Notes under the pieces: model-generated
The model's database searches: none
The model's input: only the letters and a program-made list of their open reading frames with translations
Told to the model about the DNA's origin: nothing
Source of the DNA: an uncultured Mycoplasmatota bacterium
GTDB taxonomy: Bacteria; Bacillota_I; Bacilli_A; Izemoplasmatales; Izemoplasmataceae
Reading direction: 5' to 3'
Length of the DNA stretch: 64,000 bases
NCBI GenBank assembly: GCA_913062645.1
Contig: CAJXVW010000002.1
Span: 124,001-188,000 of the forward strand
Part shown: one piece after another, positions 51,561 to 63,740 of the stretch
How the letters are laid out: the number at the start of each line of letters is the position of its first letter
Numbering within the stretch: position 1 is the stretch's first letter
Program-made: the position numbers and the translations under genes

Positions 51561-52553
51561 TTATTCCACTTCTTCTAAATTTGTATACCTAGATTGCTTC
51601 TCATTATAAGTAAATAGGGTAAATCCTGAATAGAATTTGGATTGTCCATATTGAATTGTCCAAGCTACAATTAAATATAAACTAGGAATACCAATGGATA
51701 GTAACAACACTCTAACCTCAAAATCACTACTACCATATGTGTAGAATAACATTAAGTTAGTTATATACCACGCAAGAGATAGGGTTAAATTAAATTCAAA
51801 TATTCCTAATCCAAAGTTTCTTCTAACATCATCATAGTGAACTTCTACATCTATATACGCTCTACTAAATCCTTCAATAAACATAAATATTGTCCACCCT
51901 ATGTTTACAACGAAGAACAGAAAAATAAATACACTTTCATTAGTTCCAATTTCTTCATATGTTAGACCAATTAATGTAAACATTGATAAAAGTATTAAAA
52001 AAAATTGAAATACAACAGTAGTGATGTGATCCTTCTTTATCTTTCTAATCTCACCAATATTTTTATTGTGAACAAAAATAAGTTTTTCACCTAATGGATA
52101 ATTGATTTTTGATATTGAATTCTTTGCATCAATTATTTCAATAAATAACGTACAAATTATATAAGCAAATATCGAGATCAAAGAAATGATGTACCAATTA
52201 TTGGAACTCATAATAATTGTTGTAATTCCTGAAACTAATGAGAATGCTAACATAAGATTTCGTATAAGATTCCATTCATGTTTATGTTTCCTATACTCAA
52301 CCGATTGTGAGAACTCGTTTTTTGACTTGAACTCAACAAAATTGCCTTCGGGAATTCCCATCAAGTAATTTTCTGAGCAATTCAAAGCCCTAGCTAAATC
52401 TTTAAAATGCGAAAGTTTAGGTTCAGCATTATCATTTTCCCAAACGCTAATTGTTGATTTACCCACATGGATAAGATTAGCTAACTGAGATTGGTTAAAT
52501 CCATTCTTTTTCCTTTGAATCAATATCCTTTTTCCTATTGTATCTTTATCCAA
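51561..52553 (-). CDS. XRE-family regulator fused to a membrane domain
   Basis: 330 residues from TTG 52553 with GAGGTGAG upstream. Residues ~5-65 form a classic XRE HTH (GFNQSQLANLIHVGKSTISVWENDNAEPKLSHFKDLARAL). About six membrane helices follow (from ~95), so the DNA-binding domain is tethered to the membrane. Such proteins act as one-component sensors of membrane or phage-related stress. It may control the small membrane gene downstream and neighbouring defence genes. Confidence 0.85.
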   Translation of the reverse strand: MDKDTIGKRILIQRKKNGFNQSQLANLIHVGKSTISVWENDNAEPKLSHFKDLARALNCSENYLMGIPEGNFVEFKSKNEFSQSVEYRKHKHEWNLIRNLMLAFSLVSGITTIIMSSNNWYIISLISIFAYIICTLFIEIIDAKNSISKINYPLGEKLIFVHNKNIGEIRKIKKDHITTVVFQFFLILLSMFTLIGLTYEEIGTNESVFIFLFFVVNIGWTIFMFIEGFSRAYIDVEVHYDDVRRNFGLGIFEFNLTLSLAWYITNLMLFYTYGSSDFEVRVLLLSIGIPSLYLIVAWTIQYGQSKFYSGFTLFTYNEKQSRYTNLEEVE

Positions 52554-52642
52554 TACATCTCACCTCTTCCAATAACAATAACAACAATTTATGGTTATAC
52601 AACTCCATCAGCTAATACTAGTATAGATAAAGTTAGAAATAT

Positions 52643-53830
52643 TTATTTCAATTCCTTGATCTTAATCCTTCCATCTATTGACATTCTATGATACAAACCT
52701 CTTGGTTTGTTAAAGCCAATCTCATACTCGTAAATCAAATCGTGAAGCCTATCGATGTTTTCTGAAGCTCTATCAATATTACCAAAATTGGAATAATAGA
52801 GAACAATGCTCGTGTTACTTAAAGCAATATTGCATTTATTGAAAATAGCATAAAAGTATGAATAGTCTTGATAATTTAGAGAATGTCCATAAATAATGAT
52901 TTCCTCAATATCATCATAATTTATTTGCCCTGTGAAAATATCTGGATCATTAGATAAAATATTATCTAGTATTGACAATCTGTAGGTTTTTGTAAATTTG
53001 TAAACAGGATTTTTAGGCGTCATATCAAAAGAATCAATTCCAAATATTATTTCATCATATTTTCCCAAAAAGGTTCCATGGATATTTTGAAAATGTCTAA
53101 AATTATATCCATTTGTTTGGCCAAGACGCGTGTAGTTAAAAGACAATATATTGACGTTCTGTAGTACTGCATGAAGTTTACTAACTCTATCTTCATATTG
53201 GGTATCATTTTCGTGCTTAATACCAAGTAATTGCGAATAAGTTTCATTGGCGATTACATGAGTAGTATTATCTAGGTTATATATTGACTTTAAATACTCA
53301 ATAAACTTGAGCTCAATTTGATGAAGATCTTCGTTAATCTTATTCAATATATCCTTGGTGTCATTTAAAATAATATTAAACTTATTGAGTATGTTTGTAT
53401 GAGTAAAAGAACAAATATCTCTCATATTATTTCCTCTATGTAAAATCCACAAGAACTTAAGTGTCGGAGTATTGTAATATATATCTTGCTTAATTGTATC
53501 TCGTAACTGATCTGTATAAGTTCTGATATTCTTTAGGATGTCATTTAAGTTGATAGAATACTCCATATCTGGCTTGTACAGTAATGCTGCAATAATACTC
53601 TCAATATCCTTCCATAGAAATGACTTCTCTTCATCATGATAAGATAGCAGCAAAGCCCAAATAATATTCACTCTTTTATTCCCCTGTAAATACTTACCAT
53701 TATCAAATAAATAGTTAAACTCTCTATTGTATTGACTATCCTTCAACAAAAACTTGAAAAAGTCATCATAAGTCGATTTCAAACCACAGTGCAAATCAAA
53801 TCCATTCCCAATAATTATTAATCTTGACAC
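52643..53830 (-). CDS. AbiH-family abortive infection protein
   Basis: 395 residues from GTG 53830 (GGGAG upstream). The N-terminus MSRLIIIGNGFDLHCGLKSTY and continuation DDFFKFL are the AbiH signature (nucleotide-binding-like GNGFD loop). A conserved YGHSLNYQDYSYF occurs in the C-terminal half, recalling a SIR2-like or Rossmann-type core. Lactococcal AbiH blocks phage infection by an unknown route. It is a stand-alone gene between the regulator and the DUF2971 pair. Confidence 0.88.
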   Translation of the reverse strand: MSRLIIIGNGFDLHCGLKSTYDDFFKFLLKDSQYNREFNYLFDNGKYLQGNKRVNIIWALLLSYHDEEKSFLWKDIESIIAALLYKPDMEYSINLNDILKNIRTYTDQLRDTIKQDIYYNTPTLKFLWILHRGNNMRDICSFTHTNILNKFNIILNDTKDILNKINEDLHQIELKFIEYLKSIYNLDNTTHVIANETYSQLLGIKHENDTQYEDRVSKLHAVLQNVNILSFNYTRLGQTNGYNFRHFQNIHGTFLGKYDEIIFGIDSFDMTPKNPVYKFTKTYRLSILDNILSNDPDIFTGQINYDDIEEIIIYGHSLNYQDYSYFYAIFNKCNIALSNTSIVLYYSNFGNIDRASENIDRLHDLIYEYEIGFNKPRGLYHRMSIDGRIKIKELK

Positions 53831-53912
53831 ATTGTCAACTCCCAACTATATCAACTTTTTCCTAGTTTATAACAAAATTGAAATCAGTTTTCATAGCTAC
53901 TAGGATTTAAAT

Positions 53913-54794
53913 TTATTGTATTTTGAACTTTCTAAATTTGTTGTTCATATATCTCATTTGCTTGATTTCAATTCCTTGTTTATTGCATATTTCAATTATT
54001 CTCTCCCTATCTGCTTCGTCTATATGAGATCCTAAAATCACTTCTTTAGGTTTTATCATAAGTTTATGTCCAGGAACCTTTCTTGTTGTTAGTTTAATAG
54101 ATCGGAATTCCTTTTCATATGACCAATCAGTATGCTTAGTAGCAAGTTTATCTTGTATAAACTTATACAATGTAGTTTCATCCCATTTCAAATTGTATTG
54201 CTCTTTGTATTCTTCAGGCGTCATTGAATCTGAATAGTTTTGCTTATAATCAACATAATTCTTCATTCCTTCAATGAATAAGTTCGTCATATTATGACTA
54301 TTATCGTTGTAAAGTACACTTAAAGAATAATCGTTGCTTCTAATCAACTCATCTTTTGAATACCCAATAACAATACCCTTGTTATAATTTGAATAGAAAG
54401 ACCACATGGGTTCAATATTGTACGAGTATGAAAAACAGCCGATAACAGTATTATCTGAATATTTATAAAGAAACTTTAAATTAAAATCAGCCAAAAAAGC
54501 TGCTATACATTGATGGCTACTCATTTTACTAACATCAACTGTTCCATCACTACCATAAGTACTTTCCAAAATTTTCCTACCTTCCAGAATTATTCCCTTT
54601 TTTATTTCTTCATACTTGTTATTAAGCAACTCTTTTATAATGTAGTCTAAATCCATGTATGAATGAAACTCAAACTTATCATTTAATACTTGAGAGTTTG
54701 ACATCCAGACATAATTATTCTCAAGCGAGTCGAATGTTTTATCATTACACTCACGATACTTATATACTAATAGATTATCACTATTTCCATCCAT
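53913..54794 (-). CDS. DUF2971 family protein
   Basis: 293 residues, ATG behind AAGGAGG. The family signatures are N-terminal YKYRECNDKTFDSLENNYVWMSN..LNDKFEF, the centre IGCFSYSYNIEPMWSFYSNYNKGIVIGY, and DWSYEKEFRSIKL near the C-terminus. DUF2971 proteins are cytoplasmic, biochemically uncharacterised and frequent in mobile and defence regions. One base separates it from the 2TM gene upstream, implying a two-protein unit. Confidence 0.88.
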   Translation of the reverse strand: MDGNSDNLLVYKYRECNDKTFDSLENNYVWMSNSQVLNDKFEFHSYMDLDYIIKELLNNKYEEIKKGIILEGRKILESTYGSDGTVDVSKMSSHQCIAAFLADFNLKFLYKYSDNTVIGCFSYSYNIEPMWSFYSNYNKGIVIGYSKDELIRSNDYSLSVLYNDNSHNMTNLFIEGMKNYVDYKQNYSDSMTPEEYKEQYNLKWDETTLYKFIQDKLATKHTDWSYEKEFRSIKLTTRKVPGHKLMIKPKEVILGSHIDEADRERIIEICNKQGIEIKQMRYMNNKFRKFKIQ

Positions 54795-54795
54795 A

Positions 54796-55386
54796 TTAAT
54801 CCTCCTTAATTACTTTAGATTGAATTCTATTATGTAATTTCTCGTGTTTATTATGGAGAATAATATTAACTGTAATAAGAATCAATAATAAAATAAAAAC
54901 TATAGTTAGTTGTACCCAATACTTAGGTGTTGTTTCATTTATGAAAGTAAAAACCCCCAAAGCTAAACTGCCAAAGCCAAATAACCAATTCAGATACACT
55001 TCCTTTTTTGATATTGATATTTGGTTGATATCTTCCTTAATTAGTTCATACTCAAATCTATAGTAATTAATGGGAAGACATTTCTCTAACTCACCCATAA
55101 TTGTGTAATAAACAAAATTATGTATCATATAAGTTCTAATCGATATTTGCCATATAACAGTGATTATATACATGAAAACAGAGATGCCTATCATAAATTC
55201 ATAAGATATATTAGTCACTTCTCCTAAAATTCCATATATTGATAGAATCGTAGTTAGAACTCCAATAAAAAAACCATTGATGCTAATCCGTCTTTTTGTA
55301 GTATTCTCAATAATGTTTGCAATATTACTAAACTGTGATTGAAACATACCATCCATATTTTTATTTGAATCATTAATTAATTTCAT
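54796..55386 (-). CDS. Two- to four-TM SLATT-like membrane protein
   Basis: 196 residues from ATG 55386 with AAGGAGG at perfect spacing; nine codons upstream are open but not needed. A soluble N-terminus (~1-40) is followed by two hydrophobic hairpins (INGFFIGVLTTILSIYG..FMIGISVFMYIITVIW; LFGFGSLALGVFTFI..VQLTIVFILLLILITVNIIL) with a helical segment between. The layout recalls SLATT pore-forming effectors of nucleotide-signalling defence systems, but the match is by shape. It is coupled to the DUF2971 gene. Confidence 0.7.
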   Translation of the reverse strand: MKLINDSNKNMDGMFQSQFSNIANIIENTTKRRISINGFFIGVLTTILSIYGILGEVTNISYEFMIGISVFMYIITVIWQISIRTYMIHNFVYYTIMGELEKCLPINYYRFEYELIKEDINQISISKKEVYLNWLFGFGSLALGVFTFINETTPKYWVQLTIVFILLLILITVNIILHNKHEKLHNRIQSKVIKED

Positions 55387-55500
55387 ATTTTCCTCCTTAA
55401 AAGCAGCCCTCAAAAGAGGACTATATAGTTTTCCCCTTACGGTTTCTAAATTATATTATACTACTATCTTAATAAATTTTATAGGTCATATAAGAACCCA

Positions 55501-55629: not shown

Positions 55630-57093
55630 CTATACGATTTTATAAATATCTTGATAAATTTTCGAATTATTATCAAACTCAAACACTTTGAAATCCAATA
55701 TGTCGTAATTATAAATAGAAGCAATAAATACCTGATGATCTCTAAAATCCTCTTTTATCAAGTTTAGCATCAAGTCAACATTAAATGCAGATACTTCATT
55801 ATTACGTGGAGAATCAATAATGATTGGTAAGTAAATGTTCATAGATTTTGCGATAAACTTCAAATAAGCGAGTCTATAGGCTAAAGCTATTTTGCTTTTT
55901 ATAGCCCCCGAGTATATTGAGAGATTCTGTTTAAATATATTCTTTGAACTATCATCAAGTGAAGAAGCTACATTTAGTTTATTAGCAAAATAATACACTC
56001 TTTCAAATAGTTCTTGAGAAAAATCACTTTTTAAGGATATTCTCTGGCTTTTCTCTTCTTCAAGTTCTTTAAGTTCTTTCTTATATTGTTTCTCTAAATT
56101 TGAAATACGTTCAACGCTTAAATTGTTGTCAACAAAAAACGTCGAAACAAGGCTTGATAGGTCAGGTGTGTTGATTGGCAGTTCGATACTTTCTAACTCC
56201 TGATCAAGAATTTTCAAATCATTTTGTAAAATATTCAATTCTAAGTTCAGTGCCTTAATTGAATATTTCAAATATTCTTGGTTATCTTCATAATCCACCA
56301 AATTAGATTTATTAACAGGGATTCTCTCTCCATCTTTCGTTTCGATAGATAGATGAAGTTCCTCAATACTATTAATAAATGAGTTATTATTTCTGTATGA
56401 CTTCTCTATTCTTCTAACTTCATTTTTCTTTTGATTAATTCTGAATTGCAATAATCCTCTTTCTTTTCTTAACTCGGACACTTTAGTTTCTTCATTAAAG
56501 AGACTATTTTCACTTTTTTCTTGTCTGAAATAACTACTAGTAGATTTAATTACTCTAAGTGTACGCAAATGTTCGTGAATCTTTCCAATCTTATTTTGCA
56601 GATCATGAATGTCAGAACCTGAAATACCCGCCATTAATTCCATTGCGTCAAACTTATTTGTTTTACCAATTACAGTACCTTTTACAAACCAACTCCAACC
56701 ATTATCCTGATCTATATAGAAAACACCCAGGATATTATTCAATACATTCGGTTCTTCTATTCCAAAAACCATAGAGTGAAGACTATTTCTTTCTTTAGGC
56801 AGATGTATTGTCTTTTTAAACTCAGCTATTTGTAATATTATTTTAGCGAAACTGCTTCTTTTCAAGACAATTGTTGAATCTGCATTAGACATCTCAAGTA
56901 TTGTCTCAATATTTTTGAATCTATATCCTCTAGTACTACTAACGTTAAATCCTAAGCTGTAAAGCAATATTCTTAGAAATGTTGTTTTACCTGCAGTATT
57001 TACTTCTTTACTAAAAAAGAGATTGTTTTTATCAAATCGATACTCAAAATGATTAAATCCATCGATAATTTTTAATGAATTAAACTTTATCAT
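55630..57093 (-). CDS. SMC/AAA-like ATPase with degenerate Walker A (LmuB-like)
   Basis: 487 residues, ATG behind AAGGAGG, overlapping the nuclease gene by 14 bp. The nucleotide loop reads SKEVNTAGKTTF (28-39), where the first Gly of Walker A is missing. A central coiled coil (~190-350) precedes an ABC-like C-terminal half with LPIIIDSPRNNEVS as Walker B, in which Ser stands in the usual Glu position. Such DSP-type Walker B motifs occur in the coiled-coil ATPases of Lamassu, ABC-3C and RloC-like systems. It probably senses phage DNA or replication intermediates and releases the nuclease encoded upstream. Confidence 0.8.
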   Translation of the reverse strand: MIKFNSLKIIDGFNHFEYRFDKNNLFFSKEVNTAGKTTFLRILLYSLGFNVSSTRGYRFKNIETILEMSNADSTIVLKRSSFAKIILQIAEFKKTIHLPKERNSLHSMVFGIEEPNVLNNILGVFYIDQDNGWSWFVKGTVIGKTNKFDAMELMAGISGSDIHDLQNKIGKIHEHLRTLRVIKSTSSYFRQEKSENSLFNEETKVSELRKERGLLQFRINQKKNEVRRIEKSYRNNNSFINSIEELHLSIETKDGERIPVNKSNLVDYEDNQEYLKYSIKALNLELNILQNDLKILDQELESIELPINTPDLSSLVSTFFVDNNLSVERISNLEKQYKKELKELEEEKSQRISLKSDFSQELFERVYYFANKLNVASSLDDSSKNIFKQNLSIYSGAIKSKIALAYRLAYLKFIAKSMNIYLPIIIDSPRNNEVSAFNVDLMLNLIKEDFRDHQVFIASIYNYDILDFKVFEFDNNSKIYQDIYKIV

Positions 57094-58102
57094 AATTTAG
57101 TACCTCCTTGATTCTTTTTAAATGATGTCTTTTCTGGATTATCTTATAAACAAAAATATTTGCTGTTACTTCACCGAAATCTTCTTCGATTACATCGTCC
57201 AGATACTTGGAAGCAAAATCTTTCGTGTAGTGTTTTGTGAACTCTGCATCTCTTTCGAAACCTCTTAATGATGGGTTATCTTGTATAAACTCAGTATACT
57301 TTGTGATGACTTCTATAATAACCTTATAGTCTGATAGAATTGTATCATGTATTCGATCATAATCGATTTGAATAGTGTTCAAAACATCATACTCATTTGC
57401 CTGACTTTCCAATTTATCAAGCAGTTTTTCAAGATCTGAAAAACTAAGATTTTCTCGTAATACTGCAGAGACAATACTCCAAACAAAGTCGGACTTTGGA
57501 AATCCTGCCTTATTCCCTTTTTGACTGGCTAAGAAAAACATTTTGCGATGCCACTCATTCATCATTTCTTTGGCAACACCATTAGAATGTGGCACCCGAA
57601 TCTCATCTAGGATGTTCCTTATTTGATTAATCATTTCCTGTGCTTTTTCGTCTTCTGTTTCCCCATCAAATGGAATGTTCCTTATAATTAGCTTGTTTAC
57701 ATCTCTAAGATTAGTTTTCGTTCTTATTTTTGTTTTTATGCTTTCATCCAAATCACTATAACCTTTACTACTATTATGTAAAAATAGGTTCATTGTATTG
57801 ACGGGAAAGTAAATATTGGTTGAATAAATCAGTTCTGTATACTTGTCACTATTCTTGTTATGAAGAGAATTCAACCCATCTATAAAATGCGAATTATGCG
57901 ATGGTTTTCTTTGTGAAGGAGTCTGACTTACTTTCGACTGTATTAACTTTACTCCATTTTCAGACTCAAGCTCAATATCCTCATGTAACTCAACATTAAT
58001 GAGTTTCATTTCTTTCAAATACTTAAATGCATACCATATACTTTGACAAATTTGTCCATCCCATCCATTTGCACCAGCTGATGCATTATTAATGTTATCC
58101 AT
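57080..58102 (-). CDS. Cap4/DUF4297-like dsDNA endonuclease (LmuA-like effector)
   Basis: 340 residues from ATG 58102 (GAGGTG at 9 bp). The N-terminal nuclease core is GWDGQICQSIWYAFKYLKEM, then VELHEDIEL (E41-D42) and KLIQSKVSQ (Q55, K57), the E-D...Q-x-K pattern of Cap4/DUF4297 restriction-type nucleases. The remaining ~270 residues are helical, without membrane segment or SAVED domain, so nucleotide activation is not evident. Pairing with an SMC-like ATPase makes it Lamassu- or ABC-3C-like; a middle component is absent. Confidence 0.78.
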   Translation of the reverse strand: MDNINNASAGANGWDGQICQSIWYAFKYLKEMKLINVELHEDIELESENGVKLIQSKVSQTPSQRKPSHNSHFIDGLNSLHNKNSDKYTELIYSTNIYFPVNTMNLFLHNSSKGYSDLDESIKTKIRTKTNLRDVNKLIIRNIPFDGETEDEKAQEMINQIRNILDEIRVPHSNGVAKEMMNEWHRKMFFLASQKGNKAGFPKSDFVWSIVSAVLRENLSFSDLEKLLDKLESQANEYDVLNTIQIDYDRIHDTILSDYKVIIEVITKYTEFIQDNPSLRGFERDAEFTKHYTKDFASKYLDDVIEEDFGEVTANIFVYKIIQKRHHLKRIKEVLNYDKV

Positions 58103-58193
58103 GATCTTCACACCTCACCCATAAAAAATAATATGTTAATATCGTATCATAATAAATTATAACATATTCTCATAATAGATAAAAAGACAAGAT

Positions 58194-59447
58194 TTACTTG
58201 TCTTGATTATTATTCCTTTTTTCCAATGCAATCATTTTTAAATAGTCTTTATATGTATATGAGTTTGATGAAATCACAAAATCTAATCCGTTAACAGTCA
58301 CATATTGTAAACCAAATTCATCTACTTGATTACACAATTTAGTATTTGATAATAAAGTTAGTTGATAAACGATATAGTTTTTGCATGAAATCTCGTCTAA
58401 GAAATTCAGTAAATCTATAAATGAATCCAACGTCTCCCCAGGTAAGCCACGAATTACTGATACCTCATACTTAATGTTCAAATCATTCAACTTATGAATT
58501 ATTGTTTGAACTACAGACAAATCATTTACTCTTTCAATACTTCTGAGTGTCTTACCATTGATTGATTGAAGACCAAATTCTAACACCACATTTAATTTGC
58601 TCAACATATCAATTAGCATTTTATCCCTTATCATCTCATTGTTTAGCACTTCAAACTTCGCTTGAATACTCAATGTAGGTTTGAAATTAATTTCAATCAG
58701 GTACATCAACAGAGATTTGTAATTCTTCAATGTAAATATTGGATCTATTATATTCACTTTCTCTACACCAACTTGATCCAAATATTTCAGTTCAACCTTA
58801 ATTTTGTCTAGATTATGCTTAGTGATTTTGCGATGGTCGTTACCTTTATATGAACAGAAAGAGCAGTTATAAGGGCACCCTCTCTTGGTTTCTAAACTAA
58901 CAGTGCTTCCTTTTTTCACATCGATAATATGATTCGAGTAAATTTTCGGAATATCATTATTATTAACGTCTATGCTAACTACCTTTGATTGTATTTCGTT
59001 ATTAATAAGTTTATATAATGCCTCTTCAGCAAAACCAATAATAAAATGATCGACTTGTGAGTATGAAATTTGCAATCTGTTGATGTTCATAGAATTAACC
59101 TCATACCCACCACAAATAATCTTCGCAAAACTAGATGCATCCTCTATTAGTATGAGCAGATTATTCATATAACTCATAGACCAAGCATACATCCCAACAC
59201 ATATGTAATCATATTCTGAAGAAAGTTGTTCTGTAAGTTGTTGCATTTGTGAAAAATATATTGAATCTGATTCATTCATATTGAACGAAAACACATCAAT
59301 ATTTATTAACTTCATCTTGTTTTTTAAGTACGATTCTAGTGTGGCTACTGCTACACTTTTTTTCGGCTTATTTGTAAAATGATAATCGAACGTAATAAAT
59401 AATACATCGACTACACTATCTTTCTTTTTATTTCTTTCAAGCGTCAA
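58194..59447 (-). CDS. Cobalamin-type radical SAM protein in a defence cluster
   Basis: 417 residues from TTG 59447. Residues ~13-150 form a B12-binding-like Rossmann fold (VLFITFDY..., YICVGMYAWSMS, IICGGYEVN) without the DxHxxG cobalamin ligand. The radical SAM core follows, with the iron-sulfur site C191-x3-C195-x2-C198 (RGCPYNCSFCSY) and later strands VVLEFGLQSINGKTLRSIERV and EVSVIRGLPGETLDSFI. The reaction is unknown. The same frame stays open ~61 codons further upstream with Cys-rich sequence, and the ribosome-binding site AAGGAGG lies at 59634-59640, so the true start may be upstream. It is the third gene after two OLD-family ATPases. Confidence 0.85.
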   Translation of the reverse strand: MTLERNKKKDSVVDVLFITFDYHFTNKPKKSVAVATLESYLKNKMKLINIDVFSFNMNESDSIYFSQMQQLTEQLSSEYDYICVGMYAWSMSYMNNLLILIEDASSFAKIICGGYEVNSMNINRLQISYSQVDHFIIGFAEEALYKLINNEIQSKVVSIDVNNNDIPKIYSNHIIDVKKGSTVSLETKRGCPYNCSFCSYKGNDHRKITKHNLDKIKVELKYLDQVGVEKVNIIDPIFTLKNYKSLLMYLIEINFKPTLSIQAKFEVLNNEMIRDKMLIDMLSKLNVVLEFGLQSINGKTLRSIERVNDLSVVQTIIHKLNDLNIKYEVSVIRGLPGETLDSFIDLLNFLDEISCKNYIVYQLTLLSNTKLCNQVDEFGLQYVTVNGLDFVISSNSYTYKDYLKMIALEKRNNNQDK

Positions 59448-59638
59448 AAAATTGACAGCTCTTACTTTTTGCTGATTACCGTTATTACCACTTACAAACT
59501 CTTCAATCGTCCATCCATACTTACTACACTCATTATTATATTGCTCATATCTTATTTCTTTACCAGAATAATCTTGACAATAAGATTTTCTACCACATGT
59601 TCGTTCCCATACATCTTTTTTGTTGAATCTATACCTCC

Positions 59639-61429
59639 TTAATCAAGCCTCATTCTATTCACTATAATGTTTAGTTTCTCAATTAGTCCTTCAGATAATT
59701 CACCATCGTTTTCGAAATGTTTCTTCATCTTTGTAACATCCATTTTGTTATCTCCATTATGAATCTCTGTCAGATTCAGAACATCCTCTTCAGAAAGATA
59801 TGATTCTATTTCCTGAATGTCCTCATTTCCAGCAACATGTATTACATCGCTATATTGCTCATACTTATTACCAAGTGCTCTTTTAATATTTTTGACTTTG
59901 TCATAATCTACCAATGCAACAAAATCCAATCCAAGATTCACACAAATTCCGATCATCTGAGTTATACCTTCTCCTGCACATTGAATTAAGTTATATCTAT
60001 CTAAATCTTTTTCAGTGTACTTGTTGATATAGTATTCTAATAACATCTGATCGGTTTTACCTTCTACTAAAATCATCTTCTTCAAAGACATTATTAGTAA
60101 TTTACCAACAGTTATTCTAGTTGCCTCTTCAATATTAGACAAATCCATTGGTTCAACAGTAATCTCATCATCGATACTAGTTCTCAAAACTTTGGAATCA
60201 TGTCTTAAAACAACTAAATGTGACATGTGTGTTGTATAAATTATTTGATATTCTTCATCGATTAGAAGTTCAAATACTTCAAATAATCTTCTTTGTATTG
60301 ATGGATTCAAATACATTCCGGGTTCATCAATAAATAGCAACTTACTTTCTTGTTCAGATACTCTTTTTGCTAGATACACAACCCACTTTTCTCCATCTGA
60401 AAGAGAATCATAACTAGCATCCACAATTGGAACACCCAATATCCCAACAATTTTCTTACCTAGATCATTGAGTTCAATTTTATCTCTTTGTCTAGCATTT
60501 ATAAAACTACTCGAAATTATGTTTGATTTTGTCAAGTAATTCAAACAATTTTTTTCAATATCTTGTAAAAGTTCATTGTACTTGTCAATTGCTTCGGATA
60601 TATTTTTCTCTTTGTCATCTAAAATATCTAATTCATTCTTAATTTGCTTCTTTTTACCTCTCATAAACTGTTTTAGATACTCAATCTTCTCTTTTAGTTT
60701 ATAATAATAATCTTTCATTCCTTCTAAATCGTACTTGTATCCGTCAGCTTCAATAGTCAAATCCTTTACTGAATCATAGAATGTAAGAAACTCTTTTTCT
60801 TCCATAAAACTAATATCAAATATATTTCTGTCGACATATTTATTGAAGTTAAAATCCATAAAAGGCGTTGTATCAGATTGATGCAAATTAGTCTCATTTT
60901 CAATAAACTCACTGAACCTGTTAATTTCTTCATCAAGTACATCTCTATCAAAGAAAATAATTGGTCTTCCATATACATCTGCATCCCAAACTTCAGACGG
61001 TATACCTTTTAGTTCACTATCGATTTCTAATAACATTGCATGAACTTTCTTTTGAAATGCATAGAAATACTTTATATCCACATTTAGGTACTTAATGATT
61101 TCTTCAAGGTATTCCTCGTGACCTTCCAGAATAAATTCATTATGATTCCAATTCTCACCATCAAAATGGAATGTAGCGGTTAATAGTGTGTTCATTTCAT
61201 CTTGTAGAAAATCCAAATCACTCACATCAACTGAAAATACGTATGAATTGCTCGTTCTATAATCGTTAATTATACCCTTACTATATCTACCTGAAATTCC
61301 CTCTAGCAATGTTGTTTTACCACTTGCATTATCACCGATAATACATGTTAACTTCTCAGATAAGTTTACGGTTTGATTTACTATTTTTTTATAATCTCTA
61401 ACTATTACGTTCTTAAGTTTGATATCCAT
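59639..61429 (-). CDS. OLD-family ATPase with intact TOPRIM domain
   Basis: 596 residues, ATG behind AGGAGG. The ABC-type ATPase has Walker A IGDNASGKTT (31-40), a coiled coil (~235-300), signature SLSDGEKWVVYLAKR, Walker B LLFIDEPGMYL and an H-loop TTHMSHL. The C-terminal TOPRIM nuclease domain has E456 (ILVEGKTDQMLLEYY) and the D508-x-D510 pair (ALVDYDK). This is the OLD/GajA architecture: ATP-regulated DNA nicking or cutting. No GajB-like helicase follows; instead a paralogous ATPase precedes it by 16 bp and a radical SAM gene follows. Confidence 0.92.
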   Translation of the reverse strand: MDIKLKNVIVRDYKKIVNQTVNLSEKLTCIIGDNASGKTTLLEGISGRYSKGIINDYRTSNSYVFSVDVSDLDFLQDEMNTLLTATFHFDGENWNHNEFILEGHEEYLEEIIKYLNVDIKYFYAFQKKVHAMLLEIDSELKGIPSEVWDADVYGRPIIFFDRDVLDEEINRFSEFIENETNLHQSDTTPFMDFNFNKYVDRNIFDISFMEEKEFLTFYDSVKDLTIEADGYKYDLEGMKDYYYKLKEKIEYLKQFMRGKKKQIKNELDILDDKEKNISEAIDKYNELLQDIEKNCLNYLTKSNIISSSFINARQRDKIELNDLGKKIVGILGVPIVDASYDSLSDGEKWVVYLAKRVSEQESKLLFIDEPGMYLNPSIQRRLFEVFELLIDEEYQIIYTTHMSHLVVLRHDSKVLRTSIDDEITVEPMDLSNIEEATRITVGKLLIMSLKKMILVEGKTDQMLLEYYINKYTEKDLDRYNLIQCAGEGITQMIGICVNLGLDFVALVDYDKVKNIKRALGNKYEQYSDVIHVAGNEDIQEIESYLSEEDVLNLTEIHNGDNKMDVTKMKKHFENDGELSEGLIEKLNIIVNRMRLD

Positions 61430-61445
61430 TTAGTCCTCCTCCCCA

Positions 61446-63437
61446 TCAAAAAAAATCTGACAATTTTTTGTAATTATTCTTTTTAGCTATCGCAACAAAA
61501 TCTTCAAGAAGATAGATGTTCTTCGATCCTACAATTTCAATAAGTGATTCGTATCTACCTCTATTTTGAATAACGCAAACAATCTCGATTCCTTTCACTC
61601 TTAACAAATCGATTAATAGTTTGTATGGTTTACTTCTAACTATACCTGGAATCACTTGTAAATCTTTATCAATACCTAGTTGTATAATTGTTTTCAGAAA
61701 GTGCTTGGAATCAGGGTGAACGAAGACTACTTTCTTTCTGTAATCGACAAACATGCCTTGTAGATACTCTAACTCCAAAGCTTCTACTATAACTTCTTCA
61801 ATATTATTGTCTATCTCGCGACAAATTATTTCATCATCAGTCTTTACCACTTCACTCATTGACACTTCATTAATATTTAATGGGATAAGTGCAGCAGTAT
61901 GAGTCGTATACATTACTTTGCAGTCCATATCAACTATTGTCTGAATCACCTTTAGTTGTTTGCTTTGATGTAGAAATAGAGCTGGTTCATCAATTAATAG
62001 TAAATCAGAGTAAGATAATAATTGTTTAATTAGCCCAAAACGCAATCCCCAAATCGTACCACTTGACATGTTCCCAATCTCTACATCTGCTTCACTATAA
62101 AACACCTTTGTGTTATGAATAGAATATGGTTTTTCATCAGATGGTACTATGTTGATAGTATCTATTCTTGAGTCATATTCCGAAACAACATCTACGAAAA
62201 CCTTACTAAGCCAATCATGAATATATTCATAATTCATGTCGAAGTATATTTCTTCAAAGCCACTTTCATAGTCTTTAATAATGTCTCTATTAGCAAGGAA
62301 TCTTCTAACTCGTTTCTCAAAATCAGGTAAATCATCAATAAATACTTTCATTGCATCATCAGAGTCTACAAAAGCTTTCTTAAAACTGTTTTCATCGTCA
62401 TATGATCCGATACTTCCATGAAGCACTTTGAAATCCTTCATAATGGAATAATATTCAAAAGTCTTGATTTTATCTTCTACATCCGATAAAAAATCGTCAC
62501 CGATTAGTTCATACAGTTTTGGTTTTATGACTTTTAACGCAGTTGTGATGATTTCACTGTCCAAATTGTAATTGATATTGTGATCAATAAACTCTACATT
62601 CTGAATCGTATTTCGTACTAGATACTCATATAAATCGGAATAATCAGCAAATAAAACATTATAGGTATCAATCAAATCATTCATTTCTTTCATATGATTC
62701 ATAAGCTCATCATATAAACCGGGATACAGTTTATCAAACTCATCCAAATAATCTTTGTATACAGATGTTCCATCAATCCTGAATTGCTTAAATAGCTTCT
62801 CTCCAAAGCTAACATGATCCGGAATATTTCCACAATCAATAGCAATCAAGTACTCGGGTTCTCTCAATCTATAAAGTTCTAATCTTGAACCTCTACCACT
62901 AATCCAACCATCGAACTCATTCTCTTCAAGTTTGCTTGTAACACTATAGCTTCTTCCATTATTAGCCAAATGTTCATATACAACATAAAACTTGTTTGGA
63001 TCTATATCATTCTCTTGGGCGAAAATGTTAAATTTCTCTCTTGTATCACGAATTACATTCATGCATTTTTCATTCTCTTGTAGTATCAGCTTTTTTAGAT
63101 GTTCATACTCCTTTATCGTCCAGGGACAATAAAACTTGGGGTACCCGAACATCTCATTGTGCATTAGAACTGAGAGCTCTCCCTCATGCTCCAGTGTCAA
63201 CATATCATATACTATATCACCATTCTCAATCACATACTCAATAGAAGAATCTTCAATATTGAAATAATCACCATACACTCTAGGTAATCTTCTGAATATC
63301 TTGTATACAGCCTTCAGCAAAGTTGATTTACCTGAACCATTCTTGCCAATAAAGCAGTGTTTATCCCTTTTGAAGTTTATGCTATGTTCTTGAACATAGA
63401 ATTTATCTAACTTGAAATTTATCTTTTGAAGTCTCAT
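61446..63437 (-). CDS. OLD-like ABC ATPase with degenerate TOPRIM-like end
   Basis: 663 residues, ATG behind GAGGAGGGTGAT. It has Walker A IGKNGSGKST (30-39), a long helical insertion (~100-400), signature NMSSGTIWGLRFGL, Walker B DLLLIDEPALFLH and H-loop YTTHTAALIP. The C-terminal ~130 residues follow the TOPRIM order of strands, but the expected Glu motif reads KKVVFVHPDSKHFL and the D-x-D strand reads IEIVCVIQNRG, so the metal ligands are lost. It is probably a regulatory or recognition partner of the active enzyme encoded next. Confidence 0.85.
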   Translation of the reverse strand: MRLQKINFKLDKFYVQEHSINFKRDKHCFIGKNGSGKSTLLKAVYKIFRRLPRVYGDYFNIEDSSIEYVIENGDIVYDMLTLEHEGELSVLMHNEMFGYPKFYCPWTIKEYEHLKKLILQENEKCMNVIRDTREKFNIFAQENDIDPNKFYVVYEHLANNGRSYSVTSKLEENEFDGWISGRGSRLELYRLREPEYLIAIDCGNIPDHVSFGEKLFKQFRIDGTSVYKDYLDEFDKLYPGLYDELMNHMKEMNDLIDTYNVLFADYSDLYEYLVRNTIQNVEFIDHNINYNLDSEIITTALKVIKPKLYELIGDDFLSDVEDKIKTFEYYSIMKDFKVLHGSIGSYDDENSFKKAFVDSDDAMKVFIDDLPDFEKRVRRFLANRDIIKDYESGFEEIYFDMNYEYIHDWLSKVFVDVVSEYDSRIDTINIVPSDEKPYSIHNTKVFYSEADVEIGNMSSGTIWGLRFGLIKQLLSYSDLLLIDEPALFLHQSKQLKVIQTIVDMDCKVMYTTHTAALIPLNINEVSMSEVVKTDDEIICREIDNNIEEVIVEALELEYLQGMFVDYRKKVVFVHPDSKHFLKTIIQLGIDKDLQVIPGIVRSKPYKLLIDLLRVKGIEIVCVIQNRGRYESLIEIVGSKNIYLLEDFVAIAKKNNYKKLSDFF

Positions 63438-63462
63438 CTAATCACCCTCCTCAGTTAACTTA

Positions 63463-63493
63463 ATTATACCATTTTATATTTAATACTTCTCAA
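63463..63493 (-). promoter_or_regulatory. Promoter of the OLD/OLD/radical SAM genes
   Basis: On the minus strand, TTGAGA (63493-63488) and TATAAT (63468-63463) are 19 bp apart, 25 bp before the first ATPase start. The long spacer and the XRE genes just upstream suggest regulated use. Confidence 0.5.
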
Positions 63494-63509
63494 AAAGAAA
63501 AGCACTTTA

Positions 63510-63740
63510 CTATTGTAAAATGCTATTCATCGAAATCTCCATAACATCTACAATCTTATAGACCATAGATAATCTAGGAGAATTTGTGCCTGATTCCCAC
63601 TTTCGTATCATGCGATCACTTACATCAAGAAGCTCTGCTAAATACTCTTGGGAATACCCTTTTGCTTCACGTAATCTTTTCAGATTGATAGCAAAGGGTG
63701 TAAGGCTTTTTCGTTTGCTGTCAGCTATCAACACCTCCAA
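63510..63740 (-). CDS. XRE-family regulator
   Basis: Up to 76 residues; the start is unclear (TTG 63740, or TTG 63731 just after GGAGGTG). The HTH is plain: LKRLREAKGYSQEYLAELLDVSDRMIRKWESGTNSPRLSMVYKIVDVM. It is a minimal XRE protein with no sensor domain, immediately upstream of the OLD/OLD/radical SAM genes, and is their likely repressor or switch. Confidence 0.8.
   Translation of the reverse strand: MEVLIADSKRKSLTPFAINLKRLREAKGYSQEYLAELLDVSDRMIRKWESGTNSPRLSMVYKIVDVMEISMNSILQ

Follow-up and report, generated by a model that had tools for sequence, protein, structure and literature searches.

A putative defence module of two OLD-type ATPases, an HNH nuclease and a cobalamin-type radical SAM protein, probably present as a degraded copy in an uncultured Mycoplasmatota bacterium

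The 64,000-nucleotide stretch of DNA analysed here (the window; contig CAJXVW010000002.1) carries on its minus strand what is very probably a degraded copy of a four-gene module. The gene content and order recur in three genomes, two of which possess an intact HNH nuclease gene preceded by a conserved leader, whereas in the window both the functional HNH gene and the leader have been lost. The explanation that best accounts for the whole locus, and in which we have moderate confidence, is that it is degraded from the arrangement ATPase1, ATPase2 with a TOPRIM domain, a segment of promoter, structured leader and terminator, an HNH nuclease and a cobalamin-type radical SAM protein, with a mechanism that we infer. 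Judged by its sequences, this is probably a rare anti-virus module.

The three adjacent open reading frames (ORFs) of the initial annotation are real and lie on the minus strand at the positions claimed: ATPase1 (663 aa, 61446–63437), an OLD-like ABC-type ATPase whose C-terminus lacks a TOPRIM motif; ATPase2 (596 aa, 59639–61429), an OLD-family ATPase with TOPRIM residues E456 and D508xD510; and a member of the PDC-M51A radical SAM family whose N-terminal domain resembles cobalamin-binding domains (417 aa counted from a TTG start, 58194–59447). The gaps between them had been described as short, which holds for the first (16 bp) but not for the second, where 191 bp contain the relic of an HNH nuclease (59436–59630, minus strand) that lies in the same frame as the radical SAM ORF and matches an HNH profile. 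The concept of a self-contained three-gene system overlooked this fourth gene, a relic in the window but intact in both relatives, and is not supported. On the same strand, ATPase1 is preceded by a Shine-Dalgarno sequence (GGAGGG, 63445–63450) and a promoter with the extended −10 element TGGTATAAT (63463–63468), while terminator-like hairpins, also on the minus strand, lie between ATPase1 and an XRE-type ORF (63501–63524) and at the end of the radical SAM gene (58184–58204), where the hairpin parts the module from PDC-M46 genes. XRE-type ORFs were indeed found upstream, although the membership of the XRE/HTH_3 regulator (63510–63740, minus strand) is uncertain, and no XRE regulator stands beside the intact modules of the two relatives. 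Since AT-rich DNA yields many promoters by chance (49 candidates found, 49.6 expected), the promoter reading rests on conserved position and not on the match; one promoter for all genes, as first proposed, fits the window copy, but in the intact relatives a promoter-like sequence, a leader and a terminator stand before the HNH gene.

Full-length homologues of ATPase1 (threshold E≤1e-15) were detected in three genomes only: the window's own (G000), Candidatus Izimaplasma bacterium HR2 (G450; loci L044 and L050) and G470 (locus L067), which belongs to another order of the class. Besides the window's own genome, the ATPases occur only in G450 among 90 genomes of the order, and among the 395 genomes of the class that were searched full-length ATPase1 is confined to G450 and G470. 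The Izemoplasma records HR2 (G450) and Candidatus Izemoplasma acidinucleici (G013) are of the same family as the window's genome. In 3/3 genomes ATPase1 is followed by ATPase2 and the radical SAM gene in the same order, so the gene-neighbour search suggested initially found the three genes travelling together, and in G450 and G470 the set comprises ATPase1, ATPase2, an intact HNH gene (103–106 aa, with PF13395 above the cut-off) and the radical SAM gene. The window's ATPase1 is 23% identical to that of G450 and 27% identical to that of G470, in the same operon position, ATPase2 is 28% identical to those of the relatives, and the radical SAM proteins share 49–55%. Recurrence of the gene set in the same order in two other genomes indicates a true module, and because the outer neighbours differ across the three genomes (XRE and PDC-M46 in the window; HsdS, and a 71-aa ORF with HATPase, in G450; PDC-S61 with a reverse transcriptase (RT), and a 265-aa ORF, in G470), the module ends at these four genes. 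As only three ATPase-bearing loci are known, no more than two or three sequences underlie what is said here on conserved residues and RNA covariation.

Searches of wider collections found no ATPase1 match in plasmids or in genome contigs, where the radical SAM matches were two Izemoplasma loci, and no radical SAM or HNH relatives in viral contigs. A number of candidates were set aside: plasmid matches to the radical SAM protein, which were distant or were B12 radical SAM proteins of larger size, of which some lay within biosynthetic clusters; two distant radical SAM matches in phages, one in an unannotated record; partial or weak ATPase matches in viral contigs; many radical SAM matches in the phylum sample that were larger paralogues, mostly frames of 530–600 codons; an OLD-like ATPase of genome G211 with its own TOPRIM in a different context; and lone HNH proteins with unrelated neighbours in Candidatus Izemoplasma acidinucleici (G013:C122; loci L039 and L051 belong to the same genome) and in G450:C11.

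The conserved leader upstream of the HNH gene spans 187 bp in G450 (L044:4639–4825, plus strand) and 197 bp in G470 (L067:9330–9526, minus strand), and in both consists of a promoter-like sequence, a structured segment, a small Shine-Dalgarno start site and a terminator. The promoter-like hexamers, a TG-extended TATAAT and a −35-like element, occupy the same place in both (10/12 and 11/12), the terminator is near-identical (AAAACCCAAG..CTTGGGTTTTTCT), and GACnnnGTCACACT directly precedes the HNH ribosome site in each. The two leaders are 76.5% identical, compared with 66–72% for the four coding genes at the nucleotide level, and their alignment score of 112 stands against 26.5±4.6 for dinucleotide shuffles; with the terminator removed, the shuffles were still exceeded (48 vs 24±4 and 33 vs 15±3). 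A 9-bp long-range pairing joins GACnnnGUY before the terminator to GACnnnGUC behind it and has survived two double changes, a result reached in 0/150 column shuffles; with two sequences, the covariation is suggestive only. The leader matched no Rfam family, and as a DNA query it returned only matches of 23–59 bases elsewhere in the order, mostly to the start-site stretch and the terminator. Its simplest reading is an attenuator, a function we assign to it with considerable doubt, and an independent RNA is possible. We think it very improbable that a separately transcribed and terminated leader RNA of ~120–130 nt, lying directly before the Cas9/IscB-type HNH gene, works with the HNH protein and the OLD-type ATPases as guide, scaffold or sensor, the radical SAM enzyme modifying that RNA or a nucleotide signal; if it did, the module would represent a novel type of RNA-dependent nuclease system.

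With a promoter-like sequence and leader of their own in both relatives, the HNH and radical SAM genes look like a second, separately controlled unit, and the locus could accordingly be two independent neighbouring modules, one a dual OLD ATPase/TOPRIM system, the other composed of HNH and radical SAM (PDC-M51A-like). In G013, moreover, a PDC-M51A radical SAM gene 52% identical to that of the window has neither the ATPases nor HNH beside it; within a type I restriction island (L039:7985–11195, plus strand) it is flanked by genes for a PDC-S26 PD-(D/E)XK protein on one side and a MazG-like protein on the other. PADLOC, for its part, pairs PDC-M51A with another protein, PDC-M51B. A separate promoter and conserved partners elsewhere for the radical SAM gene had been named at the outset as an objection to a single system. 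Against two modules, the gene order is the same and free of insertions in three genomes, which represent two orders and have differing outer neighbours, and every ATPase1 homologue found of comparable quality was accompanied by radical SAM and by HNH or its relic. Two separate modules are on this evidence unlikely, if the most serious of the alternatives to a single four-gene module.

The radical SAM protein itself is recognised by Radical_SAM (E 3.7e-16) and, over residues 14–414, by PDC-M51A (E 1.6e-78; 1.5e-71 to 2.7e-76 in its homologues), and the cysteines of its CxxxCxxC motif (C191, C195 and C198) are invariant in four radical SAM proteins. Its nearest solved relatives by sequence are the cobalamin-dependent methylases CysS and TokK, and the predicted fold (pLDDT 66) matches TokK, CysS, TsrM and MgmA, so the protein resembles cobalamin-dependent methylases as far as sequence and model can tell. 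As to the label 'B12-type radical SAM enzyme', the Pfam B12-binding domain was found only below the cut-off (E 0.016 in the window, 2.4e-5 in G450). At ~400 aa and in a defence island rather than a biosynthetic cluster, it differs from CysS, TokK, TsrM and MgmA, with which it shares sequence, predicted fold, the CxxxCxxC motif and, putatively, a B12-binding-like N-terminal domain.

To our knowledge, radical SAM chemistry in bacterial immunity is known mainly from viperins, and an alternative in which the enzyme makes a modified nucleotide like viperin, the ATPase-nuclease complex responding to that nucleotide or to phage DNA carrying it, deserves mention on several grounds. The dTMP kinase encoded in the window's genome is matched both by PDC-M51B and by PADLOC VakA (which we take to be the viperin-associated kinase), and this dTMP-kinase likeness hints at nucleotide chemistry elsewhere in the PDC-M51 family; the MazG-like protein that follows the G013 radical SAM gene is a nucleotide pyrophosphohydrolase; and viperin appears in the fold search. 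PDC-M51B is, however, absent beside the module, the nearest matches in the genome being the dTMP kinase gene at C2:212300, ~28 kb off, and C2:377396, and neither a kinase nor a MazG gene belongs to the modules of the window, G450 or G470. Viperin, too, ranks low in the fold list, the best sequence and fold matches being the B12-dependent methylases named above, and we consider a viperin-like role distinctly unlikely.

The decay of the window copy is visible within the radical SAM ORF, which is open for 482 codons from stop to stop and thus extends 65 codons upstream of the annotated start; these codons resemble an HNH nuclease, and the annotated TTG marks the junction of relic and radical SAM gene. 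Against a profile built from the two intact HNH proteins the relic scored E 8.5e-13, and its local alignment score was 138 compared with 29±5 for 2000 shuffles; the profile found no other copy, intact or not, in the window's genome. The relic retains an N-terminal stretch (DYSG and YNN..SKY.W) and a preceding Shine-Dalgarno sequence (AAGGAGG), but has no ATG, GTG or TTG start, its catalytic DH, including the catalytic histidine, is replaced by EE, and the C-terminal part of HNH is lost, as is the entire leader of G450 and G470. A clean in-frame deletion of the HNH core was considered and dropped, because the profile alignment is colinear into the HNH region, where the residues have diverged. 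As no stop interrupts the radical SAM frame within the relic, a fusion product is conceivable, yet it is very unlikely that the locus is an intact three-gene, one-promoter system in which the remnant, with its retained motifs and ribosome site, has become a functional N-terminus for the radical SAM protein, given the missing start and catalytic residues and the separate HNH protein of both relatives. Just behind the relic's Shine-Dalgarno sequence (59600–59640, minus strand) there is a slippery-looking A AAA AAG, where a −1 shift would join an ATT-initiated frame to the relic/radical SAM frame; it is probably there by chance.

Both ATPases match AAA_15 and AAA_21 (E 2.3e-11 and 1.2e-11, respectively, for ATPase1), and ATPase1 bears a Walker A motif (GKNGSGKS), a Walker B motif (LLLIDEP) and TTH. 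Only ATPase2 matches OLD-like_TOPRIM (E 1e-9), and its E456 and DxD pair (D508 and D510) are invariant across three homologues, which upholds its description as a protein with an intact TOPRIM; its best solved relative is the OLD endonuclease 6p74, and its PADLOC matches are led by Old (E 2.4e-23), followed by AriA, AriAB and GajA. ATPase1 matched no TOPRIM family, and its TOPRIM motif positions are not conserved. Whether it has lost a TOPRIM site, as had been claimed, is less clear-cut: when full-length profiles are compared, ATPase1 stays aligned with ATPase2 across the TOPRIM region (98.7%), other residues standing at the catalytic positions, but taken by itself the C-terminal part shows no significant similarity to ATPase2 (E 0.09); the pLDDT of the predicted fold is 33. 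Descent of ATPase1 to a lost-TOPRIM state is plausible but weak on these alignments.

An antiphage role for the module is likely on its sequence and setting, in keeping with its annotation as a candidate defence system: G+C drops from ~45–51% to 30% at ~51 kb of the window, the 30% G+C island contains PDC-M46A/B, 8xMP, a DUF2971 protein (PDC-S31) and AbiH, and PDC-M51A is itself a PADLOC defence candidate. Several known systems are partly similar. PDC-M51, for which we found no description in the literature, shares the full-length match of the radical SAM protein, but its PDC-M51B is not adjacent here and the ATPases and HNH protein are not among its matches. Septu and retron type I-A combine a PtuA ATPase with a PtuB HNH protein; the module likewise has OLD/PtuA-like ATPases and a small HNH nuclease, but its ATPases number two, of which one has a TOPRIM, and it includes a radical SAM protein. 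PtuB models did not match the intact HNH proteins, whose only matches were to Cas9/IscB-type HNH. Retrons differ further in that no RT adjoins ATPase1 in the window or L044, the RT of L067 being two genes away beside PDC-S61. ATPase2 resembles OLD in its ABC-type ATPase and C-terminal TOPRIM with E and DxD, but among the module's adjacent proteins there is no UvrD-like GajB helicase as in Gabija (GajA), nor a separate AriB TOPRIM gene as in PARIS (AriA/AriB), ATPase2 being nearer to Old than to AriAB; and from all three systems the module differs by pairing ATPase2 with a second ATPase of its own kind, an HNH protein and a radical SAM protein. The claim that no known system joins a radical SAM protein to two ATPases agrees with the literature that we found, in which paired OLD-type ATPases with TOPRIM, HNH and a cobalamin-type radical SAM protein are not described; its conserved leader hints that a regulatory element or an RNA also belongs to that combination.

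For the single four-gene module, the following mechanism may be envisaged. The OLD-type ATPases would pair up in an ABC/SMC-like complex whose task is to sense an infection signal, or clamp it, and to gate the nuclease activity, ATPase2 supplying the active TOPRIM and ATPase1 acting as its structural or regulatory partner, with the Cas9/IscB-type HNH protein as a second effector, as PtuB is for PtuA in Septu. This ATPase-gated nuclease with HNH as effector is put forward tentatively. The leader terminator would probably hold HNH and radical SAM expression low until needed, and the radical SAM enzyme, co-expressed with HNH, would be a conditionally expressed modifier of a nucleotide, nucleic acid or protein; that it controls the nuclease is possible. 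In the window copy, which is probably impaired or reduced, the TOPRIM alone could cut and the radical SAM gene would be without a good translation start. The copy offers a view of how a defence module decays, effector and leader having gone first and the ATPases having been kept, and the two intact operons, of ~5.5 kb, are fit for direct cloning.

Further candidates were noted in the vicinity of these loci. Just downstream of the window's module (55630–58111, minus strand), the adjacent PDC-M46A (E 2.3e-44) and PDC-M46B (E 1e-112; also Lamassu LmuB-like) form a second two-gene defence candidate, followed at 51561–55413 (minus strand) by the 8xMP membrane protein, the DUF2971 protein, AbiH and a 330-aa HTH protein. 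The intact module of G470 has as neighbours (L067:13426–17187, minus strand) an RT of 687 aa, whose first ~340 aa form an N-terminal extension of no recognised type, then a PDC-S61 protein with kinship to RT-associated PD-(D/E)XK, and a protein of 247 aa; a PDC-S61 gene is likewise present near the G450 module.
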